A DNA stretch of 64,000 nucleotides from Mycteria americana (lineage: Eukaryota; Chordata; Aves; Ciconiiformes; Ciconiidae), in assembly GCF_035582795.1 (NCBI RefSeq), contig NC_134370.1, positions 46,859,501 through 46,923,500 of the forward strand, in the 5' to 3' direction. Below are positions 41,275-64,000 of the stretch, one piece after another. The position numbers and the translations under genes are program-made. Within the stretch, counting starts at the first letter, position 1; each line of letters starts with the position of its first letter. Below the pieces are notes generated by a model that was not told the DNA's origin, searched no databases, and saw only the letters and a list, made by a program, of their open reading frames with translations.

Positions 41275-41390
41275 TGGTGTTCCCCCTCTCTCACCCTGAC
41301 CGAGATGACGCAGCCTGTGGTCTCCAGCTGAAAAAGTTAAAAGATCTGTGTTGGTTCTGGTTGTGTGTCTAGTTGAAAATCAGATCAGAG
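41275..41390 (+). repeat. Copy 2 of a diverged direct repeat
   Basis: Partner of the copy at about 40228-40342. Similarity fades on both sides, so this is either a short local duplication or two fragments of an unnamed interspersed element. Confidence 0.6.
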
Positions 41391-43480: not shown

Positions 43481-44480
43481 GGCAGGTTTGGGTGTAGTGA
43501 TCAGGAAATAGGGATCTGCAAGATCCTGAAGGGTGTGGAAAAAGTGAGTGGTGATATACAGACTCTGGACTTCACCCTGTTCAGGGAGCTGGTAGGTGGG
43601 ATCCTGTGGGAGGCAGTTCTGAAGGGTGAAGGACAGGATCTTTAAGGACAGGATCTTCCAAGTCCATCCCAATAATTAGGCACACAAGCAGATGTACTGG
43701 GAGATGGGTTTGGCTAAACTGGGAATGAAACTCATGACTGAGCTCCAGTGCAAAAAGGCAGTATGAACGAGGTGGAAGCATGGACAGGCCATTAGGAGAA
43801 ATATGGAAATGTTACCTGGGCTTGTAGGAACAATGCTAGGAAAGCCAAAGCTCAGTTTGTTCAGATGTGCAAGGAACATCAGATTTTCTACAACTATAGT
43901 AGTACTAGTTGTAGAAGATCTGATGTTCCTTGCACATCTCAACAAACTCCTTTAGTTGTAGAAAGCTGAAGAAGGAAAGTGTTCACAAAGGCACCACTGG
44001 GGCAAATGGTAGTGGACACAGACAAAGCTAAGGTACTCCATGCCTTCTTTGCCTCAGTCTTCACCAACAAGGTCTCCCAGGCTGTGTACCTGGAGGCAGG
44101 GTTCAGAGAGAAGAATAACCAACAGTGGATGAGGGTTAGGGTGGTTATTACTTGGAGAGCTTGGCCCATAAAAATCTGTGAGCCCAGAGAGGCGGTGTTC
44201 AAGGGTGCTGAGAGGTCGCCATGGGTGCTGACTGATGTCCTTGCAAGGCCACTTGTAACATCATGGAGAAAATTGTGGAGCAAGTCCTGCTGGAGTGTGT
44301 TCCTGGGTAGATGGAGAAGCAGGAGGTAATGGGGAACAGGCAGCCTGGGCTGAGCAGGGATAAACCCACCGTGATTGCCTCCTGTGACGGGACCACAGGA
44401 TTTGTGGGTGAGGGCAGAGCAGCGATGCCATTCACCTCGCCATTCACCTCAGCGGTAGATCTGGCACTGTCTCCCACCAC
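43480..44480 (+). repeat. CR1 LINE fragment, sense, ORF2 5' part
   Basis: The run of phrases matches CR1 ORF2 between endonuclease and reverse transcriptase: 'gggagctggtaggtgggatc ctgtgggaggcagttctgaa gggtgaagga', 'ggacaggccattaggagaaa tatgg', 'aggaaagccaaagctcag', 'gaca-aaagctaaggtactcc atgccttctttgcctcagtc ttcacc' and 'tttgtgggtgagggcagagc ag'. It has small deletions and frameshifts and carries an internal inverted duplication (43854-43948). Its end lies about 250 bases from the NMB TATA box. Confidence 0.8.
43854..43948. repeat. Near-perfect 43-base inverted repeat (hairpin) inside CR1
   Basis: Left arm 43854-43896 and right arm 43906-43948 are reverse complements at 41 of 43 positions, with a 9-base loop (tagtagtac). 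The mismatches fall at 43862 and 43885. The word tagttgtagaa occurs again just after the right arm (about 43954-43964). Confidence 0.95.
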
Positions 44481-44639: not shown

Positions 44640-44788
44640 GACGCGGGAGGGCGGGAAGCCCAACGGCTGCCGGCGGGGGCGGGGCGGGGCGTGCCCCGAC
44701 CCCGCCCTCCCGCGCGCGGCTCCGCCCCCCCGCGGCCTATAAGGCGGGGCGGCCGCGGCAGGCGGGAGCGGGTCCCGCCGGGGCGGCC
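44640..44788 (+). promoter_or_regulatory. NMB: NMB promoter: GC boxes and TATA box
   Basis: CpG island with GC boxes (ggggcggggcggggc at about 44679-44693, ctccgccccccc at about 44720) and a TATA box CTATAAGG at 44737-44744. A start site near 44770 would give a leader of about 20 bases before ATG 44789. Confidence 0.8.
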
Positions 44789-44924
44789 ATGGCGGTGCTA
44801 CGGTGCCTCCTGCTGCTGCTGTGCGGCGCCGCGTTGGGGCCTGCCGTCCACCTCGACTTCGCCGAGCACCGCAGCCAGGCGGCCAAGATCAAAGTCAATC
44901 CCCGCGGCAACCTCTGGGCCACAG
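44789..44924 (+). CDS. NMB: NMB exon 1: signal peptide and start of the peptide
   Basis: ATG in context gcggccATGg. Encodes the signal peptide through NPRGNLWAT and one base of the Gly codon; donor ACAG|gtaccg. Confidence 0.96.
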
Positions 44925-47900
44925 GTACCGGGGTGGGGGGACGGGGACACGGGCACGCGTGTCGTGGAGCAGCTGTGGGACGCGGGCTGCCCGGCTCAGC
45001 CCTGACCTTCTGCCTCCCCCTGCCTCGTGGCTGCCTGTGGGGAGCCCCCCGCTTCCCTCGGCGCCCCGTGAAGCAGAGTGGGATGCTGGGAGGCTTGCCG
45101 AGCCCTGCCCCGGCAAGACCCGTGATGGACAGGAGAACCAAGGCAGGGGTGAGGCAGCGTCCTCCCTGGAGGGGTTTGCATCTCTTGGTGACAGGTCCAG
45201 CATCTCTCTAACCCCAAAAATCCCATCAGCAGGAGGGAAGTTTCCTGAAGTCCTGTGTGGAAGGAGGACCTGGGATTTCTGGTTTTCTCCTCTCCAAAGT
45301 ACTCTACAACAAGTACTTTGTTGTACTTGCTAATTTAGGCATTAGGTTTGCTCAGTGCTTCTTGTTGACTTGTTATGTGCTACCTCATGCCAACACAGCT
45401 TAGCATTGTTCAGTCAGAGCCCCTGCCTTTCTCCCTCCAGGCATTTTTGCAGACACAGAAGTGTGTTGTATTGCAGGTCACTTCATGGGGAAGAAAAGTG
45501 TCACGGGCTCTCCGCACCTGGAGTCGCCAGAGGAGCCTGCAGTGCCGATAGTCTTCAGTCCTTCTCTCAGAGCCTTGCTGGAGGACATGATGGAACTGCT
45601 TACCCGTGAGCTCCTGAAAATCCTCTTGCAAGAAAGACTTTTGGATGAGAACCAAGGCAAATATGACCTCACTGACCAGGTGAATATTGACTAAGATGGA
45701 GGGAGATGCTCAGAGCAGGGAGTTGGTGGAGATGTTAATCTGCAACAGCGAGCCTTGCTGGAGATGGGAGCATCTGCATGGCTACTAGAGGTGTATTCCC
45801 CCCTTCTGCTCCTGTTAACCCTCCATAAACCACTTCCTAAGACCAGCCAGGAAGGGGCAGAGGAGAAATCTCCCTAGGCTTGTGTCTAGCTGGGCAGTAG
45901 CTAATAGTCCCAAATGCTTGGGAAGGGTGTGAGGATGAGCAAGGGATGCTGTGATGGAGCTGTCATAGTGGTAATCTCCAGCTCAGGGGTTGTTCATAAG
46001 CATCTGGGTCTTCCTTGGCCAGATGCAGAAGAGACTGGCTGGCCACTGTGGCTGTCGTGAAGAAAAGTCCCCTTTTCCAGCTATTGCAGAGACAGGGAAA
46101 TCCTTTCTCCCCTCTATTTCTGTAGAGGGAGGCCAAGAGGGAAACAGCTCCATATGTGAAGGGAAAGGAGGCTGTCCTGCAAAGAGATCTTGGGCTTCCG
46201 ATGCCCCTGTCTTGGGTCTGTGTCACTGTGGTTGGGATCCCTCATTACTGAGGGGCACGTAGCTTTGTTAGCTTGCCTTGCAGAGGGCATGTGTTCATTA
46301 GTTATACTGCTGCAGAGCAGGCCTCAGGGAGCTGATGGGAGCTCTAGTAGTCCCACTATGCATCAGCAGATCCTCAGCCTCCTCGGTGTGGCTTTTGCCT
46401 CGGACCTCACCCAACTCCTAGTGGAAAACCTGCCCCTGGGAGCAATGGACACACACAGATCCTCACACAGGACGTGGAGATGGAATTGCTTGGTCTGTGT
46501 GGCTCTGCTTGTCTGTTGCCTCATGCATGCTTCCCTGGTGTCTTGCCCTTTCTAGTCACTGCAGGAAGTAACTTAGAGCCTAAAAGGAATGAAATCCTCT
46601 TAGGTGGGTCCTACATGTGCTGTCCCACTGAGCTGCTGTACTTGAGCTATCCAGTAACACTGCGCACAGGTAAAACTACTTCTGTTATCCAGGTTTAGGC
46701 AGTGCTTGCTCCTATTCTTTGCTTTTTTTGGGAAGGCACAGGTGGAGTAGAGTTGCAGGGATGTGAGCCTGAGTGGCACTGATTGTTCAAGCACCTTCTT
46801 GACTTGGTTTCAGCAGACTAAGGTAAATTGAGGCTTTCCTAGAGGGCTGGTCTCATCGGGATAGAGGGCTTTCCACCATGAAGATACAGCTGGGCATGGC
46901 TGAAGACACCAGCCCACCCTGCTCCCCTTAAGATGCTGTGTGCTGTGACTGCTGTGCTGCTGCAGCTTTTGCTTCTTGGATGCAGCTGAAAGGGAGGAGA
47001 GGGCTGTGAAGAAGGTTCTGGACCCTTCTTCATCCTCCCTGGGGAGCCTTTCAGGAGGAGGGTATTTGCTGCATTAATTGCCTGAGGTAATGGGAGAGCT
47101 GGTGGATGTGCTGCCCTGCGTCATCGGCTAAGATGTTTGTGAGCATGCAGTGTAAGTTTGATAAGAGATCCTTGTGGCTCTTCTCTGTGTAGGTAAGTCA
47201 CATGTTCAACTGCTTGCACTGCAGATGTGCTTGGGCAGAGGCTACCCTGAGCGCTGGTGCTGTGTCTTAAAACTGCCAGCTGGGCGCTGGTGCCCTGCCA
47301 GCCCTGTCGGTGCTCATTCCCAGTGCTCAAAGGCAGGTCCTGGCCAGTGGTAGCACCCAGCACTGGACATCAGCCTTTGGCACATGTGTGCTGGGTGTCA
47401 AAGCTCTGCTGCTGGAGGGTGATTTGGCTCATGGTCAAGCAGATGCTGGCCAGCTGCCTGCCTCACTGCCCCAATGCCTCTATGGTGGGAGGGTGCCTCT
47501 ATGGGTGCCCTGCACATGTGTGGCATCACAGCTTAGGTTACTGATGTGCAGCTGACTCCTACCCCTCACCTTCTCCTCCTGAAGCCTCTCGCCTTTCCTT
47601 GGCCAGTGCCCTGCTGTGTCAGCTGTCCTCTTGGTGGCAGTGGAGACCTTGCTGTGTGATAGGTCCGGTTCTGCCCTTCAGGCACCTCTGAGCACCTCAC
47701 TAGACTCAACTCCTGCCTTCCTGCTCCTTTCTTCAACACCCGTCCCCCAGGGCATCCTTGCCTCCGAGCTGCCAGTTGATATTACAGGACTACTACTACC
47801 TGGTGCCTTTGAGTGCTGTCTGTGTTATACTTTTCTGTGGGACTTTATTTTTCTTGCTCTTGTGGGTGATGTGGTGCCAATGCAAATTCCTGCCACCCTG

Positions 47901-49208
47901 ACAGCTTTTTCCCTCAGTGTGACTGTTGTTGGACACCTGGAGTCAGCACCCAGCCTGTGCTTGAACTGATCTGTGTGCTATGTTTGCCACCTGCCTAACA
48001 AGCTGTTTAATAGCTCTGCTCTGTGAAATTGTCTGTCCATCCCCTGCTCAGGATCTGTCACTTCCATCTCAACTCGGTTTAGAAAAACAAAGATGCTTCT
48101 TTCTCCCTTCCTTGGGACTCCCTGGTCAGCAAAGCAGGAATTAACACGCTTTCTAAGTGTTGCTCTGCTGCTCTGGCACACATGCTGTGCTTTGTGGCAG
48201 GATAAGTATCAAGGGAACTTTTATTGAAAAACCCAATGGGCTTTTCCTTTTCTGAGGGTGTCACTGATCATTCACAAATGGGTTCTTCCTTTCTGTGGGG
48301 CCCCTCTAAGCATTAAATAAATCCCAGGGCTTAGTCCTTTTTGCTTGCTCACCCTTCATGTGGGTTAGTCCTGCCTGCTGCTGTTGGGTTTTGTCTCAAG
48401 ATGTTTCCCATCCCTTTGCAAAGTGGGAGCCCCTGTGCTGCTCTGTGCTTGTGATGGCAGAAGTTGCACAGAGCAGAAGGGGTTTGCAAACAGGGATTTA
48501 TGGTTTGTGTTTTTAACCACATGTGGCAGGCAAGGCTTGGCTCTCAGCACGCTGGGGCTTCACAGTGCCACCCTGTTGCTGTGTGTGACAAGAATTTGGC
48601 TGGCAGAGGAGGATTGTCCCCATCTCTTGTCATCTTCTTGGGTGTGTGGCAATATTCCTCCAGGAGACAGACAGGGTGAGACCATGTGCATGGAGTGGTT
48701 CCAGGGGTGTGGGGAGGACCCTTCTGCATGAAGGCAGATGCTTCCCTGTGTAGCTCTGGGACCTCTGGGCAGTACGCAATCCCACAAAATCCCTCTGTAA
48801 TTCTTCCCTGCTGTGTTTTGTGTTTCTTTTTGCTGTCTTGCATAGCTCCCTGCTGAATCAGGCCCTGAGGCTGCTCTTGTTCCTGAAGCCCAACCCAGTG
48901 GCTGCAGTCTCAGTGGGCTGGTGAAGTTTGCTTCTGATGTCTGTCAGCTGTGGTCCAGCTGTTGGAGCACAGGATGGGAGGCAGGAGCCAGGCTCCTGGC
49001 TCTTTCCTTCTTGTGTGTTGTCCCAAGTCACCCCTGAAAGTGCCATCATGGTCCAGCATGGGGCACTTGGCTGATCTTCTGCCCCATGGTACCCAGCAGG
49101 TGATGTTGGTGGAGGCTGTATATGGGACCCAGTGTCTCAGTGTTGTGCCTTTTCTTGCAGGAGGCAGGGCTTCTAGAAAAGGTGCTGGAGAAGTATTTTT
49201 CAAACTGA
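44789..49208 (+). CDS. NMB: Neuromedin B precursor (complete, 3 coding exons)
   Basis: Secreted bombesin-family neuropeptide precursor; mature neuromedin B acts on the Gq-coupled NMB receptor. Coding exons: 44789-44924, 45477-45679 and 49161-49208, 128 residues in all. A signal peptide (MAVLRCLLLLLCGAALGPA) is followed by the N-terminal part of the long form (about HLDFAEHRSQAAKIKVNPR). Then comes the invariant decapeptide GNLWATGHFM, followed by GKK, the amidation glycine plus dibasic cleavage site. The C-terminal propeptide ends in an amphipathic helix shared between exons 2 and 3 (LLEDMMELLTRELLKILLQ.. and EAGLLEKVLEKYFSN). Exon 3 is placed by a pyrimidine-rich acceptor in phase, resemblance to the mammalian C-terminal helix, and the poly(A) signal that follows. 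The mature peptide is identical to the mammalian decapeptide. Confidence 0.95.
44925..45476 (+). other. NMB intron 1
   Basis: 552 bases, first half GC-rich. Nothing else recognised. The long GC-rich open frames crossing exon 1 are shadows. Confidence 0.8.
45477..45679 (+). CDS. NMB: NMB exon 2: HFM-GKK and propeptide
   Basis: Acceptor gtgttgtattgcag; donor GACCAG|gtgaat, phase 0. Completes GHFMGKKSV and encodes most of the C-terminal propeptide to KYDLTDQ. Confidence 0.96.
45680..49160 (+). other. NMB intron 2
   Basis: About 3.5 kb with no other exon, RNA gene or named repeat recognised. Confidence 0.7.
49161..49208 (+). CDS. NMB: NMB exon 3, short C-terminal coding part
   Basis: Acceptor gccttttcttgcag. 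Encodes EAGLLEKVLEKYFSN and TGA at 49206-49208, in phase with exon 2. It continues the leucine-rich amphipathic pattern of the preceding exon. Confidence 0.85.
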   Translation, partial: EAGLLEKVLEKYFSN

Positions 49209-49442
49209 AGAAGCACAGCCATGGAGGATGAGGTCTGCAGGCTTGGCTGTGCATGGCAAATGGAGGAGAGCATCATCCTTGTGGGTTACTGTAGCAACAT
49301 CACTTTTATTTATTCTTTCTGTAATATTGTTAATAGTGATTGCTTGTATGAAAAGCAGAGCCTCCCTGTATATTTCCTGTATGTTTTCTGCTTTCTTGAT
49401 GTCTGATGTGCCCCTGTGAATAAAACTGGCTCTTTGCACAGA
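49209..49442 (+). other. NMB: NMB 3' untranslated region with poly(A) signal
   Basis: AATAAA at 49419-49424 in ctgtgaataaaactgg, followed by a T/G-rich stretch. The 3' end faces the decayed DUOX 3' end, tail to tail, about 400 bases away. Confidence 0.82.
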
Positions 49443-49849
49443 CTAGCTCAGACTTTTCTGTGGAGGTGGGAATGCAGACCCCCAGGGCTTGTGCAGGAAG
49501 AATGGGGGATGGAAGGAAGCTCCTGGCTCTCAGCAGCCAGGAGGGGATTGGATTCAGTCCCTGCAGCCTCTGTTCACTGAAGGAAGCCCAAACTGCTGCA
49601 TGACAAAATTACAAGCTTGGATGAGCTGATTACACCACTCACTACTGGAGCATCTTTATAACCCTCTTTGCTGGAGAGATTACCAGCAAACCCTCCTGAA
49701 AGCAAAAAGCATTTTGCTCATGGCATTGCTGGGATTTCTGGTTCAAGCAGGGTCCCTGCCTTGTGGGACCCCAGGGTTTACTACAGGCTCATTGGCCTTG
49801 GCTAGACCTTCTTCTGCTGTCCCCCATGTGCAGGTGCTGACCATTAAAT

Positions 49850-50060
49850 GCTCAGCCTCTTTATGTGCCTGCTTTGAGATGACTGCTTGGTGCACCTGCA
49901 CTTTGTGCACGTAGTTAAGCACTCACATGGGCAGAGGTACAGCACTGGGATCCTCCATTGTGCAGGACAGCTGAAGAAGGGCACAAATGGGGACTGCCCA
50001 AAATAGGTGGTGGAGCACAGGCTCTGCACCTTCTGAAAGTGCTGCTCATAGATATACCCT
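49850..50060 (-). pseudogene. DUOX relic: C-terminal NADPH-domain exon
   Basis: Reads YIYEQHFQKV then STTYFGQSPFVPFF, against YICERHFQKV..SITHFGRPPFEPFF in DUOX, with 9-10 residues missing between. After that the frame breaks (TGA at about 49935), and only a faint trace of the TKNVEKACQLINRQ region remains. The C-terminal ENF end is lost. Confidence 0.85.
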
Positions 50061-51954
50061 ATGTCCCCTAGCCACCCCTGGGGATGTTCCCAGGACCTAA
50101 ACCTGGTAGCAGATCCCAGAGTGATGCCATAAATGAAACCATAAGCTTTTTCCCCCCCCATGCTTCTGATGCTAAATTCAACCTGAACCTTTGAGCTCCC
50201 ACAGGGAGGAGAGCTCTTCTCCCACAAGCGACAGGAGCCCAGAGCCATGTCATGCCAAGCCAAGGGATGATCCAGCATCTGAACATGCTGATGACCAGTA
50301 GAGGGGAGAAAGCCATGGTAGGAGACCTTCCTACCTTGTTCCCTATCACTTCAAGGATGGCTTGAAGCCCAGATGGTGTTTATGAATGTATTGCTCCTGC
50401 AGGCTTACTCATGAGTGAGGGAAAGGCAGTGGCAGCCCTAAACCCTTTTCTGGGGAGCTGCAGGGGAGGATGGCTGGTCTCCATCCTAGGGCAGATGTGG
50501 GGCATGCAGGCACAGATGCCCTGGCCCACTCACATTATGGCACAGCACTGCCTCCTGTCCAGCCCCACTCCTGGAGATGCTTCTCAGGAGATGGTATGGT
50601 ACTGCAAGCCCACTGCCAATGTCACAGGATGTCCCAAGCCAGGTGAGAGTTGGAGCCACCAGTGTAGGGGACAGCTGGGAACATCATGGGATCCTCAGGT
50701 CCTGCTTGGGGCAGGCTGGCAACTCTGGGAGGTGAAAAAGGGATAGGTACTGCAGAAATGTGTGATGGGGTCACCACTCCTTCTCTGAGCTTAACCTTGG
50801 GGTGCAGGCCCTGTTGTGGGCACAACCAGCATTCACACTGCTCATGTTTGCAAACAAATGAGCCTGCAGGTTATTTGCAGAATTGCCTGTCTGCCCAACT
50901 GCTCACCTGTCTCCCCTCTTGTCCCCTGCATGCCATTCCTGTGTTTGCTGGCAGCAATTGCCCAGGTATTGCCAGCTGGGAATGATGTGCTTCAGTAATA
51001 GAGACCCAGCATTCCCCATGCAGCAAACACAAAACCCATGCATTGGCCTCCAAAGCCTACAGATCTGAGATGAATAAATGAGCATTTGTTTTCCACTTAC
51101 AGCCTGGCTTTTGAGCCTTTGGAGTTGGCACTTTCTCAGCTATTTGAAGGTTGGTTTTGGTGGGTAAAAACCAAATGTCCTACAACTAGTTTGACCCAAA
51201 CATTGCCTTCAAAACCTGGTGCTCCCATCAAATGCCCCAATGCCAGGGCCCTTCATCCTTCAGAAGAGCAGGACCAAGCTAGGAGGAATTTTTCCAGGAG
51301 GCACGTGATGATTGTTCAGATCATGCCAAGCCTCCTGTGCCTCACTGGAGCAGTTGCATGGCTGCAGCCCATCGGGAGAGCACCACCTTGCTACCACTTG
51401 GAGCCCTCCCATATTCTCCAACCTGCCAGTGAACAACCCACCTGTAGCACCACAGCAGCCTCTATTCCCTTCTTGTGTCCTTCATGGTCTCCTACCCACC
51501 AGCTTCGATCAAGAGGTGTCCCACTGTCTTTCTGCAGTCACTCATGCCCAAGACTGCAGGAAGCCTTCCCCAACCTGTATTTTTTTTGCCCAGGCTTGCT
51601 GCTGTGCACTGGGATGCGGGTGACCCCCAGCTCACCTTTCATTGTTGTAGCAAAGCCTTGGCTTAAAACTAATTATAAGCAAGAAAAATAATGACATAGC
51701 ATATCGTGTTTGACCTTGGAGCAAACCAGATGCCTCTCAGCTGGCAGTGTGATGGACTGACAGCTTAATGGGATTCCTGACCTGATGTCATGTCATGGGA
51801 TCACCAGCTCATGTCCCACCCAGGCAAGCTCATGGGACATCCTGAACATCCTGAACATCACAGCAGAAACCTGCCATGAGATACCTAGGTGAGATCCTCA
51901 TTCTCCCACCCACCCAGCAAGAACCTGTCCAACTGCCTGTCTGTCTGTGCCCCA

Positions 51955-52570
51955 TCTGCCCCCATCGCTATCTTGTGGGTCGACATAAAGATGGGGAGAT
52001 CACTTGGTAATTACTGTCATGGGCAAAACAGGCTCGACTTGGGGAATTTCACTTAATTTATTGTCAATTAATATAATATAAATATTTGAGTACTGATTCA
52101 GGTTTTGGAAACAAACAAAAACTCTCAAGCATTTTCACAGTTGGGGAAAGCACCTGTCCTCCCCTTTGCCCCTCAATCCCAGCATCGTTCCATCCTTGTT
52201 GTCACTGCAGGTTACAGTGAAGCAACAGGCGATGGCGGGGGGATGCGGTCAGGTCGCAGTGGTTTCCTCTCTGCTGCTCCTTCCTTCTTGCTCTTTTCCT
52301 ATGCTCTGCTGTGACTGCTCAGCACTCATGTCTTCCTTTGGGGATGTACCTGCTCTCTCATAGGCTCATCCACAGGCTGCAGTCACTTTGGGGATGTATA
52401 TGCTCCAGCATGGGTCCTCCATGGGCAGCAGGCCATTCAAGAGGTGCCTGCTCCACTATGGAGCACCACTTCATCCTCCTCTTCTGAACTGCTACATAGA
52501 CTGCTGGAGCAATGTTGCCCCCCCTGAGCCACGTGTTGCTGAGAAGCAAGGTGTCCAGCACCTGCCTTGG
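51955..52570. repeat. Avian LTR-type interspersed repeat inside the DUOX relic
   Basis: Contains the wording 'aaaacaggctcgacttgggg aatttcacttaatttattg' and further on 'gcggtcaggtcgcagtggtt tcctctctgctgctcc' and 'ggatgtatatgctccagcat gggtcctcc'. I associate these with the same high-copy avian LTR-type family as the element at 1-427. It is diverged, with no clear target duplication. Confidence 0.55.
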
Positions 52571-52850
52571 ACACCATCCTAGAAGCATAGGATAACTCAG
52601 GCTGGAGAGGACCTCAGTAGATCTCTAGTCCAGCCATCTGCTCAAAGCAAGGTCAGCTCTGGAGTCAGACCAGGTTACTCAGGGCTTTGTCCCGTTAGGT
52701 CTTGAAAACCTCCAGGTATGAAGGCTGGGTGACCTGCTCCGCTGCTTGACTGTTCCAATGTTTGTCCTTCTTGCACACAGGCAAGCAACCTGTCAAGCCC
52801 AAAACCCCCAATCCCTCTTCAATTTAAATTACAAACCGAGAGGGTCAGAA
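52571..52850 (-). repeat. CR1 LINE 3' fragment, antisense
   Basis: On the + strand it begins 'agaagcataggataactcag gctggagaggacctcagtag atctctagtccagcc', the reverse complement of the CR1 3' end. The CR1 body follows ('gtcttgaaaacctccaggta tgaaggctgggtgacctg'). It abuts the LTR-type repeat on its left. Confidence 0.85.
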
Positions 52851-52988
52851 AAACTTTTGAGGAATACCATTTTTTGGCAATTTGCCTGCTCTGCCCTGGC
52901 ATCTGCTTTCTGACATTTATCTGCTGGTCCACAGCATGCACAGTCTCTCAGCACAATGCCCTCAGGCAGGTCATATGACCTGACTCAC

Positions 52989-53036
52989 CAGGTCATATTC
53001 TTTGGGGGTTTCCAGGACAAAAGCTTTGTGTCCAGG
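52989..53036 (-). pseudogene. DUOX relic exon: PKEYDL region, splice sites retained
   Basis: A 48-base open exon flanked by a 5' AG (ccctag) and a 3' gtgagt. It reads PGHKAFVLETPKEYDL, against RGCRTLLLKIPKEYDL in human DUOX2: 8 of 16 residues identical with no gap. The PKEYDL string is the strongest single anchor in this half of the relic. Confidence 0.82.
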
Positions 53037-53074
53037 CTAGGGAAATGAGCAAATTCTTCAGAATTTTTTTTTGC

Positions 53075-53205
53075 CAGCTCTGCATTTGTTCCCCTTGCTG
53101 CTCTGGTTCAAGGCTGTCCCTCCCTGCTGCTGCTTGGACTCAAGAACTTGCTCACAGCAGAGCTTGCTGCTTCTGCACAAGAGATGCAACAAGGCTGCTG
53201 ACTCA
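53075..53205 (-). pseudogene. Probable DUOX relic between membrane segment 1 and PKEYDL
   Basis: Open stretch reading ..LCCEQVLESKQQQGG..ALNQSSKGNKCR. Position suggests the DUOX segment CLQVLNRHLTVLRVV..LSNNRGCR just before PKEYDL. Taken alone it also resembles [20 protein letters not shown], which would be out of order. Homology is moderate. Confidence 0.5.
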
Positions 53206-53589
53206 ACTGAGATCACTGGGATGACCTCCCTGGGGCATACAGACCACCATAGAGCAGAACTGTGGCACAGATCCTCAGAAACCATGACAGTTCAGAGCAT
53301 GGACATCTGTGATCATAGCTGATCTCCTGGACTTCCCCCGCAACCTGTGGCCATGGTATGACCCCAGGGATGGGAAAAGGATGTGAAGTGAGATAAGAGA
53401 AATGGAGACAAGCTACCTTAACCACTGACATTTGTTTCTGTTTAGTTGTGGGACTGCCCCATGAGGAGGAGCTGGCTCAGAGGGATGTTTGTGAAAGTTC
53501 ATTGCCACCACTTGGTGTCATTGGTGTCCCAGGCTTAGTGAAGTGCTCCCTATCATGCTTACTCACACAGGACTGGCTTTCCTGCTATG

Positions 53590-53690
53590 CCCTCAGCAAA
53601 GACATCAGGCCCCAGGTTGGTATGCTTCTTCCTCCGAGGTGTCTTGAGACCTCTCTTCCATAGGAGACCAACAAACCAGGCAATGAGGAA
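53590..53690 (-). pseudogene. DUOX relic: end of membrane segment 1 and basic cytosolic stretch
   Basis: Reads FLIAWFVGLLWKRGLK then TPRRKKH, resembling the DUOX sequence LLSAWIVARLRMRNFKRLQ at the membrane exit. The AW-x-V core and the spacing of the basic residues are kept. Open for about 30 codons before a stop. Confidence 0.65.
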
Positions 53691-54114
53691 GGGAGAGAAA
53701 GAGGCAGAAAGGAAAACAGGTTGCCATCAGGAAGCAAAACAATCTTAGTCTCCTAAACACCTTTGCCATCCCCCATGCTCCTCCAGGGAAAGCTCTTCTT
53801 ATCCTGATATGGACACCAAAAACCTGACCAAGGTAAACCCAACCAGTACAGGGGCTGAGACAGCCTGAGGAAGCGGGTGTCCAGAGCTTGGCACCCCTAT
53901 TTTCTTGAAAATGATTTCCAGCTCGCAGGGAGCAGGGTATCCTAGTGCAGAGGAGCCAAGGTTAAACGCAGTGTAGGGCTGCAAACCATCTGGGTGCTCC
54001 ATCCAGAGGCCTTTTCCCCACAACAGGACCGAACAGCTCACTGCAAAGCACTGGCAGCATGGAAAGAGAGGAGTGATACCAATGACACAGGGGATCTCAC
54101 ATAATGACAAACAG

Positions 54115-54180
54115 TGGCCAGAAAGAATGTGTATCCTGAATCTAGCACTGGTGCTTTCAAAATAGTTGAGCTCCATCATA
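54115..54180 (-). pseudogene. DUOX relic: juxtamembrane YFE motif and first membrane segment
   Basis: Reads NYFESTSARFRIHILSGHCL, comparable with DYFEGSGFGFGVTIGTLCCF in DUOX1. The YFE triplet, the later Phe and the Cys are aligned without gaps. It lies between the 54.8 kb and 53.6 kb relics, as expected. Confidence 0.7.
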
Positions 54181-54289
54181 TGTGGTCAGGTGGCCAGCTT
54201 TCTGTGTTCAGCTGTAGGGACTGAGGATGGGGTCTGCTGGGAGGTGAAGAGAAGGGAAATCTAAGCCTTGTACCAACTTCCTCTCCTCG

Positions 54290-54315
54290 CCCCCCCCCCC
54301 CCCCCCCCCCCCCCC
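54290..54315. repeat. Poly(C) homopolymer of 26 bases
   Basis: Uninterrupted C run within the relic region. A likely site of length error or variation. Confidence 0.95.
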
Positions 54316-54742
54316 AGCATGGCAGAAGCACTTTGGAAAACACAGATATGGGACCCTGTGGTGAAGCAGTTCATTGCATCAGGTCCTTGGCTTCCAGCTG
54401 AGGCCCCCAAGAAGGGAGTCAGCTAAAGATGAGCAGGAGACGTGCTCTGGTAGACAGTAAGAATCCTGACAGAGATCTGGTACCTCCATGGGAACCCCAG
54501 CAGTTCAGAAAATGGCTCTGTCTCACACTGGAGCTGGCAACAGCTCCCCAGTTTGACCTGGAAATGAGAAGGAGCCAAACTCCCCTGGTCACACCACATC
54601 CAGCCTGTTCTCACTGTTCTAGTCTTTATGGGAAACTCTTCTCCTGACCCTCTTTCTCAGCCCAGGAGATGCCTTCTGGAGTATGAAATTATTCCAGTGT
54701 TGCTTGTCCCAAGCCAGATCTTCCCACAAGGGACATGCTTAC

Positions 54743-54861
54743 CCTGGCCCCAAGCAAATGCCTTGTTCTGGACTTGGGTGAACTGTGCATAAGCAACTAC
54801 AATAAGGACATCATGGAACATGGTGTCTTGAAATCCTGCAATTTCTCCTGCTGTGAATAAC
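54743..54861 (-). pseudogene. DUOX relic exon: peroxidase-domain end, splice sites and phase retained
   Basis: A 119-base exon with acceptor ctctttccccag and donor AGG|gtaagc. It reads LFTAGEIAGFQDTMFHDVL then IVVAYAQFTQVQNKAFAWGQ. This aligns with [28 protein letters not shown] of human DUOX2 over 40 residues without a gap, with 13 identities. Its phase matches the preceding relic exon (..QNG). It has stayed open but has diverged far more than expected for a working gene. Confidence 0.85.
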
Positions 54862-55885
54862 CTGGGGAAAGAGGCACAAGTGCTTGGCTGTGTTGGCAGA
54901 ATCACAGTTCTCTGCCTGCCTAGTCCGGGAGGTCTCAGGGCTGTGCCTGACCCAAGGTCCCCTATGTGACCCCGCTCAGAAGGAGATATTCTTACAGTGT
55001 ATGTGCACCAAATGCTGCTGCTTGAGGCTAGAGAGTTGGACCATCCCAGCTACAGGCCCACAAAGCCTTTTTTATGGGCTTTCTTTGCAGCACCTGTTCC
55101 TGGCAGACATGAGATGTTGGTCTTCAATGGCTGAAAACAGTTCTAGAGCAGCAGGGACAAAACCAGCCACGGGGCTGGATGAGAGCACTCCTGCAACAGG
55201 ACCCTCTACATGGGACTCCATCAGGGTGAGAGAATGCAGGGAGAGGAGGTCTAACACAATCTCACTTCCATTTTCTATTAGTTATGATGCATTTTTAACC
55301 TCCATATGGTGCTGAGAACCAGCCAAAGACTGTAACAGGAATAAGGTATTAATAATTAAGGTATTGGTTCTTCAGGCTCGTAGTGTATAAAATATAGTGA
55401 GCAATAGTGAGCAGGCTAAACGTGACGTAGCACTGGGAAATTGCTTTGCACTGGTAACAGCTCCTGGAGCAAGTGCTCCCACTGCACTGCAGAGAAGAAG
55501 GTGCCATAAACCAGCTGCTATTGAGTCCACCTGCCAACCTTTGGACTCCTTCTACAACGCTGAGACTGTGCCAGGAGTTGTAGAGCTGGCAGAAATGCTG
55601 CGTAATTGACGGCTTTTATAAAATGCATGTAGATCAGTACTGCAACACTGAGGTGTTTTCCCAGAGTGAGAAGCCAATCAAAGTGGTAATTCAGGCAAGC
55701 CCCCTTCCTGAAGCAGTAGGCAGAGGTGTATAAAGACCCCTTCCTACTCCAGGTAGGATCTAGAAAGAGTAAACTTAGGACACTCCTTTCTTTCCATTTC
55801 CAGCCTTCATTGTGCCCATGGTCTTGGCATCCCCCATCCTCTGATGCACCAGGGAAGACCTTTGCCTCCAGGAGGAAATCTGTAC

Positions 55886-56250
55886 CCATTTTGGGTGTTT
55901 TCAAGCCAAAACCTGTTGCACAAACTGGTCCAGGGTGGTGGGACTGACGAGGGAGTCACCAGCCTCCAGCATGCCCTCAGGGAGCAGCTCCAGCCTGGCC
56001 ATGCTGCTGGTGTGGAGGGCAGCAACCTGCTCCAAGACATGGATGCAAACGCCATGGGAAGGGAAGGGCTAAGAGAGCTCCCAGCAGGGCAGGAGGACTC
56101 GTGGGAATACATATCTGGGACTTGGGCCAAGGTGGACTCTGTTCCTCTTGCCTGGGAACATCCAGATGGCAGCACTAGACCTCAAAGTCCATGTCCTTTT
56201 ATGAAGGGCCAGCTTCCCAGCTTCCTCACCTGCCATGTGCCCTTTCTCTG
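55886..56250 (-). pseudogene. DUOX relic: peroxidase-domain block with frameshifts
   Basis: Three successive frames are needed. Going down in coordinate they show LPSGCSQARG (DUOX LPSYTKARA), then VLEQVAALH..MARLELLPEGMLEAG (DUOX VLEATAALYNQDLSWLELLP), then after LDQFV a shift to NRFWLENTQNG (DUOX DRYWFENTRNG). The 3' end at 55886 has a GT donor in the phase needed to join the exon at 54861. About 12 bases that encoded RLRDGD are gone, causing the shift. Confidence 0.87.
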
Positions 56251-56349
56251 GAAGGGTGGGAGACACATGCCCTGAAAGGTTTTAGGGAACCAAAGGTTTT
56301 AGGGAACCTGCTGGGAGGTCTGTGAGACTATGGTAGGAGGAACAGGGCC

Positions 56350-56450
56350 ACCAGATTCGTATAAATGCTAGTGAGAGGACCTCTGTAGGTCTCTAGTTCA
56401 ACCTCTCACTCACAGCAGGACTGTCACCAACTGCAAGACACTATCCCAAG
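56350..56450 (-). repeat. Short CR1 3' end fragment, antisense
   Basis: Wording 'gtgagaggacctctgtaggt ctctagttcaacctctcact cacagcaggactgtcacc' is the reverse complement of a CR1 3' end. It lies between peroxidase-domain relics of the DUOX gene. Confidence 0.7.
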
Positions 56451-57499
56451 GTGATGCTTGGTGGGACAGAACCACTGGGTGGGAAGAGCTCTGCACCCCA
56501 GCCCACAAGCCCTTGTGACACCCAAAGCTGGTAGAGAACATGCACAGGAGACCCGGCCAATCTCAGATCTGCCTTGGATATCTTCCACCACAATGTTCGT
56601 CCTCCTGCTCCAAGATCTGCAAGCTTATCCTCAGCAGGAGGTGGTCCAAGTCCAAGTGGAGGGACTCTGAATTTATAAGAGGTCCGTGGAGGGCTCTGGG
56701 ACAGCAAGGGGGTCTTGCAAGATCAAAACCAGTTGGAAGGTGGTTCTACAAGCCCTACAAAAATCTGTACTAGTTCCAACTAGACTGAACTATTCATTGC
56801 ACATAAGCTAAGGCAACCCATCTCTGCTTGCAGACTACCTTGACTCTATGGGTTTGGGTTTTTTTAATATTAAGCAAGCAGTTGGTTATAATTTATCTTA
56901 CGATATTTCTGCCCACACACTGTGGAGCAGCCCTTGGGTCTTTCCACTGCTTTTCAGATAGATGCATGATTTCTTATTACACCATGTACTATTGGCACTT
57001 TTGCCTGGATGGAAGAAACAGATATTCAAATGATCTTCTACCCACAGCCAGGATATGGGGTGCAGAGTGCTTGTGTGTGCTCAGACACAGACCTGCATTG
57101 CAGTCCAAGGTGGGGTAGCATTGCTCTGTGTATTAATTTCAAGGCTGGCAGGGAGACACTAGACACAGGAGCTCCATGGAAAAATGTGTATCACTTTAAT
57201 TAGGTCTCTAGCAACTGGGATTACAAGAGAAAGCTTCTCTCTAGGTTGCAGCCTGGGACAAAAGTGCTAATTACCACACCATGCATCATTAACAAGCCCC
57301 AGCAAAGCCTGGAAAAGCTCAACTCACTGATAGTTATGTCAAACTGGCAGGAATGGCTGTTATCTGTGGGGACAGGGTTCCCCAAGCTGGGACAGTAAAA
57401 TCCCTGATGAGATGTGTCCCAAAGGCTAATGCACTTCCTGACATTCACGCTGGGGCAGCAGAGCTCTGTTGGCTGAGCGGGGCCCTCATGGATTAGGCT

Positions 57500-57715
57500 G
57501 GAGAGGCAATCTGGGAGCTGGTAACCCCACTTGCTCTTTAGTGGAGAGGCAACATCTCTAAAATAGATGCAAGATTGGAAGTGATGTTCTCCCAGGGCAT
57601 CAGGGTACCCACTCAGACCCTCCCACACTCCCTCCCCGTATCCCTCTGCTCCAGCAGCTGTTGCAGAGCTGCAACACTGGGATCAGGACAGCCTGGAAGG
57701 GGCACTTGGGGTCTG
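57500..57715 (-). pseudogene. DUOX relic: peroxidase-domain DPS..EQ / ASCHF block
   Basis: Shows HRP..PDPSVAALQQLLEQ against YRPF.DPSISSEFVVASEQ. Then, with small indels, it shows the equivalent of RNASCHFRKV (bases aat-gcatc-tattttagagatgtt) and DC.LSSLIHE against VCNNYWIRE. Stops interrupt every frame. Confidence 0.65.
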
Positions 57716-58429
57716 TGAAACAGGAGAAAAGGGCTGGACATGCAGCCCCTCATCCAGGCTGGGCAATCCCAGCAAGGGGCATGATGCTTGAGAAAGAACA
57801 GGGAATGGCCCCAGTCCCAGCCCCACATCGGGGTGTCCCCTTCCCCGTCACAGGTACTGGTGTAAGTGCCCACATGGTCAAACATGAGGTCTCTGGGTGG
57901 GGTGGAGATATTCAGGAGGGCAACAGGGCAGCTGGGTTTCTGTCCTCTGGGTCTCTGAGAGCACATGGAAACCTGCAACAGCACTGGCAGGAGCTGAAAG
58001 CCTCTTTGGGGCTGGGAGCAAAGGTGATCAAGCAGCCCCAAGTTAGATGCTCTTCCTGGCACGTGCCCCTGAAAGCCCAGGCCATAGGAGGCTTGTTCCT
58101 CTCCTGCATGATGGCTCTTGGAAGGAGCAGAGGGCTGAACACTCTACACAATTTCTGGATGAGGATTTCCTCAAAGTGTGGCTGAAACCCCTCCTGTTTC
58201 AGTTCCCACTAGGATGATGAGTGGCTCCTGCTGAGCTCTGCCTCCATCTCCTGGCAGCCCTCTTGGTTGATGCTGAGTGTCTCCATCATGATATACGAAA
58301 CCAAGCTTGCTGGGCAGTGTAGTGGGCAGCAACACCTTCCCCTTCTCTCAAAATCTTTAAGTAATTTCCAAGTAGAGCTGGAAAAATAGATCCTTCTTGC
58401 AAATATGTCTAGAGCCAAACCACGGCCAC

Positions 58430-58690
58430 AGCACTGTGAATGTCTCCGCTCAGCTAGGTAGAAACTGGCCAGAGGGGGTCTCTCCATCCTTCCTCTTGTC
58501 CCTCCCTTCAAGCTGCTCCATCATGGGTCATCCAGCTGTTGCCAAGAATCCCGGGCAAGGAGCTGCAACCAAGTGTCAGGATGGGACACTGGATGAGCTC
58601 CATCGCAACAGAGCCCCAGCCTGACCTCAGCTGCAGCATCCTCCATGCCTGGGACCAGGACAGAGGGGCGATGGTGACAGTCAATGGGGC
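58430..58690 (-). pseudogene. DUOX relic: peroxidase-domain WDPETG / WLDGS / LAS block
   Basis: Shows HPDTWLQLLARDSWQQLDD, against DPETGRSPSNPRD..VTGWLDG, and then WSSLKGG..PPLASF, against YGSSHSW..GQLASG. Residue spacing is kept to within one or two positions, but a stop and frame changes intervene. Confidence 0.6.
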
Positions 58691-58847
58691 AGGGTGACAC
58701 CTGAACACAAACACCACATCTGTCCCACTGACACCAGTGGGTCAGGCAGAAATCCTCTGAGTAAAGGGTGGCCTCTCGGGGCTCCGACTCCATCTCCAAA
58801 ACTGCCTCCCTGCCCAGGCGTGTCCCTGTGCCTTCCCCACCTTCATT

Positions 58848-58925
58848 CCTGGCACCACAAGAGACGGCAGCTGATCCAACACTTCATGGCTTCTTGCACA
58901 AGAGGTGATGGTTACTGCTCGCCTC
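58848..58925 (-). pseudogene. DUOX relic: most N-terminal recognisable peroxidase piece
   Basis: Reads RRAVTITSCARSHEVLDQL then PSLVVPG, against [25 protein letters not shown] in DUOX. Weak alone; supported by its place at the head of the ordered series. The true first exons, toward 60800, were not recognised. Confidence 0.55.
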
Positions 58926-58935
58926 ACCCCCACCT

Positions 58936-60860
58936 ACCTCAGGTGACCTTGATCAGGTGACTCATCCCTAATCACCCCATCCATCGCTTGCAGGTGAGTG
59001 AAGCAGAAGCTGCCCAATAAAAGGGTGCTGACAGTATGAGCATGAGGCTGTGATCTCCTGGTGAGAAAAAACAAGTTCCCCAGAACTGTTCCCTGAAAAT
59101 TGTCTGATGAACTACACACCTTTACTACCTGCAGAAATACCCAGAAAATTTAAAAGAGAGGAAAAAACACCAAACCCCAGTTATCATCATGGCCTCGGGC
59201 TTTCTGTAGGATCTCTTTGTGGATGCAGAGTGCTGGGTGAGGGGTAAATCCAGCAGTTTTCCCACGGTTGCCAGTCCATGATCCCATCAGCACCTCAGGG
59301 AAGTGGAGCATACCCCCTTCACCGTCATGCCCCATTTCCATCACTGCTGGGGACAGATGAGGGAACCAGGGCAGCCCTGTGAGCCCTCCCAATGTCCTTG
59401 CATGCAAACGCTGTGTTGCTGGGCACCTCCTTTAGAGAAGGAGGGAAACTTCCTTCCTCCTGCTTTCATTTTTGGCAATAGGGCATCTCCCCAAAAGACA
59501 TGTTTGTGATGCTCATCTGAACAGCACAAAAATCACAGTGCCTCAATCTCTTCCCCAGGCAAATCCCACACATTGGTTTCGCCAAGCCAGTGCAGAGCCC
59601 ATCTCTCCGCTGCCTCTCTCAGCTCCAGGGAGAGCAACGAGTGATGGTCTAACCCCTGGCCAGACCACTTCTCATCCCACATACCACCTCACATGGTTGC
59701 ATCTTCCCCACCTTAATTAATCTCAGCCTGCCAATTACCAGGCACCTCCTCAGTTATCCCTCTCCCACACCAAAGGGAATGGTATTTCCACCTTTCCAAG
59801 AGGTCCAAAGGCCCACATGTGTCCACGCGATTGCCCCTGAGGATCTGCACCATTTGCTGTGAAGTCCATGTCTCCCTCCACTTTGCAGATGCTGCCAGAG
59901 CTGGAGCTGACACCACATCCCCAGCATTGCCTGCACCGGAAGACACCTCTGCAGCACAGCTCTGCACACATTTCCCAGCCATGTCACCCTTGCCACCCTT
60001 TATTTAATTTTTTTAAACAACCCCCAGGGAAGGATTCAGTATTCAGACTGAGTAGCACTAGTCTGGGACTTGAGGGGAAATGGCGAAGTCTTTGCCCAGA
60101 AATGCCTTTATTTCCTGCTGGGCATGAATTAAAACTTGTTTTTACCTCCCTCTGCCAAGGGAGTGGGAAGCACAGCTTTCCAGGGCACCCAGCGAGGCCA
60201 TCCACTGGGACGCAGAAAGAAATACCCAGGGGGTGGCAGTAATTCTGCCAGCTTCGGAGGGAAGCCCCCAAACATGGGTCAGGAGAGTGTTTCTGCCACT
60301 CTCAGCATCAATGCAACCTGCTTCAGCCAACCAAAATGCCAAAGAATGAGAGCAAACCGCAAAAGCTTGAATTTCCATGATCTCCACACTATGGCCAGGT
60401 TAGTAACCTGAGCATCTTCTGCATACCGGGGCTGGGAGCCCCGCCTAGATCTGTGCTTCTCTGGTGGTTCCCCTCACCAGCCACTGTGTCACCTTGCCCA
60501 GTGACTGACAGGTTGGCTGGGACCTTCCCAGGGAACCTCCCCCAGAGGATGGAGTCAGGAGCAGGGTCAACAAGGAGACTGCAGCCACAACCCATGCTAA
60601 ATGACCTCAGCTGGGATGCTTCATCAGGCAGTGCAGGTGAGGGCTTTGAAGCCCTCTGCTGCTCTCTCCAGCAGGCTTCTGAGGAGTCTGGCAGCCTCAG
60701 GGTCTTCATGCCATAAGGAACAGCTGGACTTTCCACCACTCTGCAGGAAAAGTAGAGGAAAAGAAGGCAAAGCTCCCCTAGGATCACTCACCTCTGCAAT
60801 GCTGCACAGCACTGTGCCAACCTGTAGCTTCCTTGCCTGCCCTGGGGCTCAGCAGGAGTG
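58936..60860. other. Region expected to hold DUOX 5' exons; none recognised
   Basis: I see no convincing match to the DUOX N-terminus (FDGWYNNLMEHRWG region). On the minus strand a GC-AG-like pair, acceptor tttcctgcag near 60742 and donor gtgagt near 60793, may be remains of non-coding or first exons. Open frames here have no family resemblance. Confidence 0.5.
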
Positions 60861-60870
60861 CCAAAGGGGG

Positions 60871-60930
60871 CCAATCAGCTGTGGGTAAGGCTGCACAATC
60901 CAGCCACCTCTGGAGGCGGGCACCATAAAA
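60871..60930 (+). promoter_or_regulatory. DUOXA promoter elements: CCAAT box and TATA-like box
   Basis: CCAAT in gccaatcag (60871-60875) and CATAAAA at 60924-60930. The spacing puts a start near 60955. Mammalian DUOX/DUOXA pairs share a bidirectional promoter, and this is the corresponding spot. Confidence 0.6.
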
Positions 60931-60954
60931 ACTGCTGGGAGAAATGCAATCATG

Positions 60955-61072
60955 ACACACCTGGCTGGCTTCTTGCCTGCAGCCTGGGGAGGCAGCACGG
61001 GCAGGGAGGCAGCATCCCGGGTACGCTGCAGCTCTGCACAGCAGCCAGCCCTCAGTATCGGCCGTGGCGGAG
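60955..61072 (+). other. Putative DUOXA non-coding first exon
   Basis: Sequence from the inferred start to the donor GGAG|gtaggc at 61072/61073. It has no frame that would join the coding exon. The exon is inferred from promoter spacing and the donor only. Confidence 0.5.
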
Positions 61073-61879: not shown

Positions 61880-62026
61880 ATGACACTGTGGAACGGCTCC
61901 TTCCCCTTCTACCCCAGCACCAGTCTGTGCTTCCCTTTCGACACCACCCAGGCCGTCATCGTCTCCGTCTTCCTCTCCTTGTTGGCCACTTTCATCATTA
62001 TCCTGCCAGGGATCTGGGGCAGCGGG
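61880..62026 (+). CDS. DUOXA: DUOXA first coding exon
   Basis: Probable acceptor gctgatttccag at 61862, ATG 61880; donor AGCGGG|gtaagt, phase 0. 49 residues including the first membrane segment. Confidence 0.95.
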
Positions 62027-64000
62027 GTAAGTGAAGGGGCTGGGGGAACTCAGCCCTCTGGTCCCTGCCCTGTACATCCCACATGCCTCCTCCTTCCCAG
62101 CCTCAAAAAAAGACATGGGGAGCAAACATGCCCACAGGTTCACCGCCAGGGCTCTGGGATCTCTAGCAAGCCATGGGGGTGAGCTACAACCCAACCCAGC
62201 ATGTACCCCCATGCTGGAGACACCAAACTCCACCATCCCAAATTTACAAGGCGCCCAGATCTGGGCTTGGCTGGATTTTGCTGTGAGCAAGCCTGAGTGA
62301 TTTCGCAGGAGTGGAAAAACAGGGCAAGGCTCAAAGACCTCACTCCACCTTCCCTGAGACCCCAATAAAAGAAGGAGGTGTGCACCATGCATGCCTCAGC
62401 ACCGCTCACAGGGCAGTGGCCAACAGACCCCCCTGCAAGCCCACCACTCGCACGCTGCGCACTCGTCACGTGCTTGGCTTTGCAGCAGGGCTGGCCAAGA
62501 GGCATCTTCCCCCAAGGGGACACACTGCGAACCCCTGGCTGCTGCTTCTGTCTCCAGCTATGGCCAGCTGCCAACACATCCAAACACGTGAGGTTTGGAT
62601 AAGTGTGGAAATCCCAGCTCACGACTATTAAAGGGAGTGTCCTCCATCCTCCTTCCCAGAAAGGGGACGGCACGGCTTTCCCAAATGGGCTGTTTTGATC
62701 TTCTTGCTCTGCCCGGATCTCCCTGCTGCCTCCCCCACCCCATGGCAGGGATGCCCCAGCCACATGTCCCCCCATGCCACCTGCCTGCAGAGCCCGGGGG
62801 GTGACTCCCCAGGGGAGGGACAGGCCCATTTCTCACTGGCTGGCATATCTAAATCACATGCTTGGTGCTGAGGTACCGATGGCAAAATCTGACTGAGACC
62901 TGTCACCCCCTCTCTGCTCACCCCTCACAGCGACTCTTCTGGTTCCTGCGGGTGGTGATGGGCCTCTTCGTGGGAGCGGTGGTCCTCAATGAGTACCAGG
63001 GTCCTGGGGGTGAAGCTCAAGGATGCCCAAGACATGGGGGATGGAGGAGCAAGGCAAGGGAGGCTGAACAGGGCAGCCAGGTGCCAAGTCCAGCCTGCAG
63101 GATGAGTTTATGGGGAAGACTGACACCCATCTGTATCTGGGATCTGGCTCCAGCAACTGGTGGGAGGTGCAAGCACCTATCTGTCTCCCCTCCCAATGCT
63201 GGCAGTTGTATGTGCAGATCACCTCCAGGGCAGTCACCGAAAGCCCACTGCCAACTGCCAGGGGACTCAGACAAACTGGCAGGTGCTTAGATGAGGACCA
63301 GTTCCTAGACAGTGTCCACACATCAGCCCCATTGCCTCTAGGGGTAGGGACTGTGCTGGGTCTGGGGAGAGATAAACCCAAGTGGGGGCCTCAGGTTCAC
63401 AGGTCAGGGTTCATGTTGGGGAAGGACATACAAGGCTTCTGATCCTTGGACTCACAACCCAGGCCTTGCCCTTGGGGTGGGGTAGGTGATGCTCAGGCCA
63501 TGGTGACCATCATGGCAGGTGCTTCCAGCACTAGATGTCTCATCGCCAGGCCATGACTAACCTTTGAAGTCTTCACAGCTGTACAGTTCACCAGGGACTG
63601 GGAGACCGGCTGGGTGACAGCAAACACCTCCTACAAGTCCTTCAGCCGTGCCCTGGTGAACGCGGACATTGGGCTGCACATTGGCCTGGCGGGGGTGAAT
63701 GTCACACTGGTGGGTGAGTGCATAACGTAACAGCAGGGGATTGAATGCAAGTTTGGCTGCCGTGCACCTGGGTACTGGGGCTGTGGGCCCTTGAGCCCCC
63801 ACACCAGGAAGTCTTGGAGCTGCCTCCAAGGCTGAGAAGGGTCCTTAGTCTTCATCATCTAGCAGGAAACCCGGTGAATCAGGTCAATGAGACCATCGAC
63901 TACAACAAGCACTTTGCCTGGAGCTTCGATGCAGATTACAACCATAGCTACAGTGAAGGGCTGGAGAAGGGGCTGCACAGCCCCATCCTCTATGTGTCGG
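61880..64000 (+). CDS. DUOXA: Dual oxidase maturation factor (DUOXA), 5' half, cut by window end
   Basis: ER/plasma membrane partner that brings dual oxidase to the cell surface and is needed for its peroxide output. Coding exons seen: 61880-62026, 62931-63009, 63579-63713 and 63866-64000 (continues). Landmarks: MTLWNGSFPFYPSTS; first membrane segment AVIVSVFLSLLATFIIILPG; RLFWFLRVVMGLFVGAVVL; NTSYKSFS; ADIGLHIGLAGVNVTLVG; QVNETIDYNKHFAW; SEGLEKGLHSPILYVS. Three N-glycosylation sites (NTS, NVT, NET) fall in the large loop, as in mammals. The N-terminus resembles DUOXA2 (TLWNG, FPFYP), while DTT, LATFI and ADIGL resemble DUOXA1, so I leave the paralogue number open. All frames seen are open. 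The fossil DUOX lies divergently upstream. Confidence 0.95.
62027..62930 (+). other. DUOXA intron
   Basis: About 0.9 kb. The 334-codon antisense open frame overlapping it (61388-62392) has no recognisable content. Confidence 0.75.
62931..63009 (+). CDS. DUOXA: DUOXA second coding exon, unusual 3' end
   Basis: Acceptor acccctcacag. Encodes RLFWFLRVVMGLFVGAVVL, then NEYQGPG before the best phase-1 donor (GGGG|gtgaag). Mammalian DUOXA lacks the extra NEYQGPG, so the donor choice is less certain; 63000|gtcctg is a weaker phase-1 alternative. Confidence 0.75.
63579..63713 (+). CDS. DUOXA: DUOXA third coding exon
   Basis: Acceptor gaagtcttcacag; donor GTGG|gtgagt, phase 1. Encodes AVQFTRDWETGWVTANTSYK through NVTLV. 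Confidence 0.94.
63866..64000 (+). CDS. DUOXA: DUOXA fourth coding exon, truncated by window end
   Basis: Acceptor catctagcag. Encodes GNPVNQVNETIDYNKHFAW and on to LYVS; still open at base 64000. Confidence 0.94.

Follow-up and report, generated by a model that had tools for sequence, protein, structure and literature searches.

Chicken has a single Duox, whereas two paralogues are present in mammals and frog (Kawahara et al., 2007; PMC1940245). Human DUOX2/DUOXA2 and DUOXA1/DUOX1 form conserved bidirectional pairs (PMC2871058), and the mammalian thyroid relies mainly on DUOX2 (PMC13078365). We analysed a 64,000-nucleotide stretch of the Mycteria americana genome (the window), in which the interval 49970-57973 on the minus strand is very likely an old unprocessed pseudogene of DUOX1. 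Judged from its sequence, the element is a decayed, intron-bearing DUOX gene lying head-to-head with a DUOXA1-like gene, and the paralogue that died is probably DUOX1. This analysis adds the fossil itself, a probable name for the paralogue that died, and signs that selection kept acting on DUOXA1 long after DUOX1 was lost. The evidence is the genome sequence of one individual of one species, assembled into 279 contigs that total 1.35 Gb; the window occupies positions 46859501-46923500 of a contig 71.7 Mb long. The 60 kb that follow the window were also examined, and positions there are given in extended coordinates, which number onward from 64001, the first base after the window's end.

The fossil shares with human and mouse DUOX1 (PDB 7d3e and 6wxr) the order of its pieces and the head-to-head place beside a DUOXA1-like gene. 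In contrast to both, about 80% of the protein is undetectable, including the EF-hands, the NOX domain and the C-terminus, and the frames are broken; the pieces that survive in order amount to approximately 285 of 1551 residues. A second DUOX, which we term the survivor DUOX, lies about 25 kb downstream of the fossil on the same contig (approximately extended 84249-104266, plus strand). Nine nucleotide matches relate the fossil to it (E 5e-28 to 0.004; 62-83% identity). Each of them is inverted, together they keep a single order, and one extends into an intron; the survivor is open over 1493 aligned residues, whereas the fossil is not. A further match, at 52586-52751, is out of order and was set aside as a repeat. 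The single chicken Duox gives the same count, and the text of that study, as far as it is accessible, reports the absence and names no pseudogene, a word missing from its main text (PMC1940245). The loss of NOX5 in rodents, described there as well, also concerns one NOX-family gene lost in one lineage, though it is a different gene and its remains are undescribed in the accessible text. Since the count of Kawahara et al. already implied a loss, we regard the fossil as the remains of that loss.

The original prediction had claimed a series of minus-strand stretches resembling DUOX in protein order, to be checked by frameshift-aware alignment. A splice- and frameshift-aware DUOX alignment, run on the minus strand of 49000-61000, confirmed the series: the resulting chain scores 329, compared with at most 90 for 80 shuffled proteins and at most 169.5 for 40 block-shuffled proteins, the latter being a test of order. 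The controls gave 72 (reversed protein), 66.5 (plus strand) and 46-80.5 (eight other 12-kb stretches). With a profile that includes the survivor DUOX the score is 343.75; the highest values among 60 shuffled and 30 block-shuffled proteins are 57.75 and 172. Residues in the chain are 42% identical to human DUOX1 and 49% identical to the survivor DUOX. A tblastn search of DUOX1 against the 64-kb window found mouse residues 445-503 at 56038-55885 (E 1.6e-6), human residues 1469-1503 at 50056-49970 (E 0.001) and residues 114-135 at 57942-57877 (E 0.024), all on the minus strand. The match of residues 523-566 at 54860-54729 (E 0.09) is not significant alone, the best of 21 control proteins reaching E 0.063. 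The best matches all fall between 58 and 50 kb on the minus strand and follow the order of the protein, and three of them beat the 21 controls.

Individual intervals were compared with 100 nulls each. No null reached the score of residues 103-135, 345-379, 380-432, 464-522, 523-566, 698-713 or 1469-1503. Support is weaker for 1-102 (1/100 nulls), 136-344 (4/100, or 1/100 in a wider stretch) and 567-697 (4/100), and the test is unsupportive for 371-379 (reached by 100/100 nulls) and 433-463 (15/100). Narrower tests of 563-612, 600-660, 36-102, 371-432 and 690-720 gave 0/300 nulls each, for intervals picked after the chain was known. In a search of both strands of the 64 kb, the best spot for seven of eight tested segments is the collinear one. 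The exception is the NYFES segment (residues 586-600), whose collinear place is not its best in the 64 kb on its own, while 563-612 passes the narrow test. The block-shuffle, interval and placement tests thus agree with the earlier claim that chance is insufficient to account for the collinearity, and score and order against the controls exclude a chance origin of the chain.

Several pieces were rejected. A looser chain (score 1011.5) was discarded since its penalties admitted chance pieces, as was an alternative setting (J 22, score 509) with many such pieces. Chain pieces at 52803-51887 (residues 1260-1394) were attributed to chance, as they fall in the interval 714-1468, which is not above the nulls. 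The same was concluded for residues 215-236 (215-229 in another chain) at 57875-57807, mostly on sequence matching a survivor DUOX intron, and for the pieces assigned to residues 6-29 and 590-609. In the PDB, the 40-residue exon had no match, and the two DUOX1 matches of the C-terminal open frame (E 0.57 and 0.61) ranked below a xylanase (E 0.12). A Pfam search of eight window open frames returned DuoxA at E 0.03 (below the cut-off), zinc fingers in one frame and nothing in the three fossil frames.

Nine exon remnants make up the fossil, eight of them supported and one weak. They follow the order of the protein from 57973 (possibly 58842) to 49970, which refines the limits of 49850-58935 first proposed. 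All lie on the minus strand. Residues 103-135, in the peroxidase homology domain, are at 57877-57973, with 76% nucleotide identity to the survivor exon, one frameshift and the acceptor GCAG|GTTTCC in place. Residues 342-370 follow at 57645-57713; here the acceptor is altered (AG two bases later), the donor is lost and the upstream intron resembles that of the survivor. Residues 380-405 at 56574-56652 are 82% identical at the nucleotide level and carry one frameshift, and the donor is lost. Residues 464-522, including LELLPEG and FWLENTQNG, occupy 55885-56038, with a small frameshifting deletion near 55916 and the donor AATGG|GTA in place. The LFTAGEI..AWGQG exon (residues 523-562) at 54741-54860 has both its acceptor and donor. 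Residues 564-610 (PHPQSLQLNTES, NYFES) at 54093-54232 contain a frameshift and a stop; a C run of 26 bases (G on the minus strand) lies nearby within the pseudogene, at 54290-54315. The weak remnant, residues 611-644 at 53586-53687, includes a 59-bp nucleotide match to the survivor exon (E 0.004). Residues 698-713 (PKEYDL) at 52986-53033 show 83% nucleotide identity and the same donor, CTG|GTGAGT, as the survivor; an AG near 53036, considered as a relic acceptor, is without counterpart in the survivor DUOX, where the exon continues. Finally, residues 1469-1503 (YIYEQHFQKV..FGQSPFVPFF) at 49970-50056 lack six residues, deleted in frame, and the acceptor is lost. A weak candidate for residues 43-88 at 58615-58842 falls in an interval tested both narrowly (36-102) and widely (1-102), and is part of one chain, but is missing from those built with the survivor profile.

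Two large exon losses interrupt this series. No more than 20 bases separate the end of the 103-135 piece from sequence whose survivor counterpart is situated 2.8 kb downstream, within the intron that precedes residue 342; we read this junction as a sign of deletion of the intervening part. Residues 714-1468 are undetectable between 50057 and 52985 (36/100 nulls reach the score); the corresponding region spans 8.6 kb in the survivor DUOX and 2.9 kb, with a repeat, in the fossil. That repeat, at approximately 52580-52750, is presumably CR1-like. On the minus strand one repeat tail is present in two copies, at 52580-52751 and 56373-56417, and sequences similar to the former occur at extended 94282-94458, 65149-65264 and 99962-100092. 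The C-terminal residues 1504-1551 are likewise undetectable (77/100 nulls). Together, 714-1468 and 1504-1551 hold what we take, with limits partly assumed, to be the EF-hands, the NOX haem helices, the FAD domain and most of the NADPH domain. The frameshifts, stop and C-terminal loss described in the original prediction were therefore all seen, and its statement that the EF-hand, haem and FAD exons are missing stands for the EF-hands, the NOX haem helices and the FAD domain. It does not stand for the peroxidase haem domain, which partly survives as pieces 103-135, 342-370, 380-405, 464-522 and 523-562; our alignment pairs DUOX residues up to 518 with lactoperoxidase, and the limits of the peroxidase domain used here are in part our assumption.

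Splice sites were compared by eye from pairwise alignments with the survivor DUOX. Five match its positions, namely two acceptors (before residues 104 and 523) and three donors (after residues 522, 562 and 712). Two other donors, after 371 and 405, are gone, as is the acceptor before 1469, and that before 342 is altered. The shared sites indicate that the copy arose with its introns, and a processed copy is ruled out by these sites, by the spread of the remnants over 8 kb and by an intron tract like that of the survivor. The marks of an unprocessed pseudogene are thus all present: significant, collinear similarity to a gene, disabling lesions and retained introns. The kept splice sites, together with a 168-codon open frame over the 1469-1503 piece, could also be taken to indicate that the remnants make a truncated working gene or a regulatory RNA. 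We consider this very improbable, given the frameshifts inside exons, the lost splice sites, the undetectable 714-1468 and the change of 61 of 175 otherwise invariant residues. No open frame unites peroxidase, EF-hand and NOX parts as in a working dual oxidase, and nothing points to a function for the fossil itself. Breaks introduced into a living gene by sequencing or assembly errors, a reading that the 26-base homopolymer might invite, are less probable still: missing exons and 42-49% residue identity are beyond the reach of base errors, and the window DUOXA and the downstream DUOX of the same assembly are frameshift-free where aligned.

Beyond the fossil, the contig carries in order a DUOXA (plus strand), a second DUOXA (minus), the survivor DUOX (plus) and SORD (minus). 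The window DUOXA continues to approximately extended 66480, the second, DUOXA2-like copy runs from 75542 to approximately 70926, and SORD, whose start was not reached, from 123937 to 107206. Alignment of the survivor DUOX covers 1493 of the 1551 human columns; 1030 of these (69%) are identical to human DUOX1, and the chain is free of stops and frameshifts. A search of this genome with PF03098 (An_peroxidase) gave 36 matches; the five on the window's contig are all inside the survivor DUOX, and of the 31 elsewhere, eight were compared with DUOX1, four being 26-34% identical and four without a match at E 1e-3. The survivor DUOX refutes the loss of the animal's sole DUOX. An apparently intact second DUOX so close by implies that one of two copies was lost, not DUOX function as a whole. 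The suggestion that a thyroid-type peroxide source had been lost is thereby contradicted, the intact-looking DUOX lying beside the DUOXA2-like gene and SORD, and the dead gene being DUOX1 by position. The head-to-head arrangement of the decayed DUOX with DUOXA, also claimed at the outset, is supported by the DUOXA exons and the remnants in the window.

Which paralogue died was judged from the two DUOXA genes. In the window, the DUOXA1-like gene has, on the plus strand, exon A at 61880-62026 (with start codon and donor GTAAGT), exon B at 62931-62988, exon C at 63579-63713 and exon D from 63866 to 64000 and past the window's end. Exon A is identical to human DUOXA1 at 24 of 41 positions and to human DUOXA2, in the sequence we assumed for it, at 17 of 41; exons B and F agree with DUOXA1 at 13/19 and 13/26 and with that DUOXA2 sequence at 9/19 and 9/26. 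Exon A of the copy beside the survivor shows the reverse (25/41 to DUOXA2, 15/41 to DUOXA1), and its exons B and F are undecided between DUOXA1 and DUOXA2 (11 vs 10 and 10 vs 9). By these exon-A identities, the fossil has the head-to-head DUOXA1 neighbour of a DUOX1 orthologue. The window DUOXA begins with MTLWNG, like human DUOXA2, which had raised the suspicion that DUOX2 was the dead gene; the whole of exon A and the neighbouring genes reverse it. With the DUOXA1 exon-A signal beside the fossil and DUOXA2 and SORD beside the survivor, the fossil is probably DUOX1, the survivor probably DUOX2 and the two DUOXA genes probably DUOXA1 and DUOXA2.

Alternatively, the fossil could be a dead lineage-specific duplicate of DUOX2 and not an orthologue of mammalian DUOX1. 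Fossil and survivor share 71% identity (73/103) in the intron next to residues 342-370, and exons C, D and E of the two DUOXA copies (window 63579-64000 and beyond, against extended 73317-72777 and 71683-71477) are nearly alike (43/46, 60/70 and 50/72), as such a duplication would have it. The same two copies are far apart in exons A, B and F (14/41, 10/19 and 8/26), and exon A of each fits a different human DUOXA, an indication that both head-to-head modules predate the divergence of birds and mammals. Gene conversion would account for the similar tracts: exons C-E of the inverted DUOXA pair were probably homogenised in this way, and the intron tract suggests that conversion reached the oxidases too. 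We therefore consider a DUOX2 duplicate unlikely. Several observations nevertheless weigh against naming the fossil DUOX1. The likeness of the intron tract may stem from homogenisation with DUOX2 that preceded the loss, or else from a duplication younger than supposed, and within that tract sequence alone does not name the paralogue. In exons C-F the DUOXA copies separate less cleanly than in exon A. The human DUOXA2 sequence used for comparison and the position of SORD next to human DUOX2 are both assumed. Furthermore, no in-frame ATG was seen after the preceding stop in the first, signal-peptide-like exon of the survivor or ahead of it (extended 84150-84420); the start codon may lie in an undetected upstream exon, and with it unfound the intactness of the survivor is unproved at the N-terminus.

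The death of DUOX1 can be set in time against its partner. Human DUOX1, mouse DUOX1 and the survivor agree at 175 of the aligned residues; of these the fossil retains 114, which in simulation corresponds to approximately 0.18 neutral substitutions per site, provided that constraint on these sites lasted until the loss. The window DUOXA is in frame and stop-free over 282 codons, an outcome found in 3.2% to 0.65% of 2000 simulations of neutral evolution over 0.15-0.20 per site. For exons C and D combined, dN between the two DUOXA copies is 0.056 and dS 0.364. With 60 simulations per setting, and a simulated dS (0.46-0.49) above that observed, this dN was reached or undercut in 42% at 0.03 neutral substitutions per site on the DUOXA1 branch, in 2% at 0.06 and in none at 0.09 or more. 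With probably no more than approximately 0.06 neutral substitutions per site for DUOXA1 and approximately 0.18 for the fossil, DUOXA1 seems to have persisted long after DUOX1 was lost, unless later conversion from DUOXA2 refreshed exons C and D. We tentatively suggest, with slightly less than even confidence, that purifying selection went on acting on DUOXA1 for most of the period since the death of DUOX1, with DUOXA1 serving DUOX2 or a DUOX-free task. The exon B donor at 62989 reads AT (ATGAGT, compared with GTAAGT in the DUOXA2-like copy), and the intron ends in AG, unlike an AT-AC intron. DUOXA1 may thus be dying, or be spliced in another way, in this animal. In chicken, a gene named DUOXA1L is among the ten most induced genes in infected tracheal cultures (PMC11792554).

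These observations can be arranged in a sequence of events. From an ancestral cluster DUOX1-DUOXA1-DUOXA2-DUOX2, DUOX1 would have lost function first and then its middle and end by deletion, the repeat now filling the gap, and DUOX2 with DUOXA2 would now produce peroxide. DUOX2, the main thyroid enzyme of mammals, seems to have been kept. Studies of mammalian airways assign epithelial host defence to DUOX1; with that gene gone, airway-type epithelial defence here would rely on DUOX2 or do without. The negative statement that chicken has one Duox becomes positive evidence of a loss, with the probable dead paralogue named, and the orphan DUOXA1 offers a test of whether the two maturation factors are interchangeable. 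Titles and abstract openings in the literature searched, whose scope left out most subscription journals, mention neither this fossil nor an avian DUOX1 loss, and the accessible parts of PMC5372347, PMC13078365 and PMC2121648 contain nothing on bird DUOX paralogues.

Elsewhere in the window, NMB flanks the fossil at 44777-45643 (plus strand), located with a human NMB query, and SEC11A lies at 24309-31515 (plus strand). The zinc-finger open frame found by Pfam, of the C2H2 type, is at 22110 and presumably belongs to ZNF592. Two further sequence features lie in the window: a direct repeat of approximately 113 bases at 40226-40338 and 41278-41388 (77% identical), and an imperfect palindrome of 95 bases at 43854-43948, whose two strands are 92% identical.

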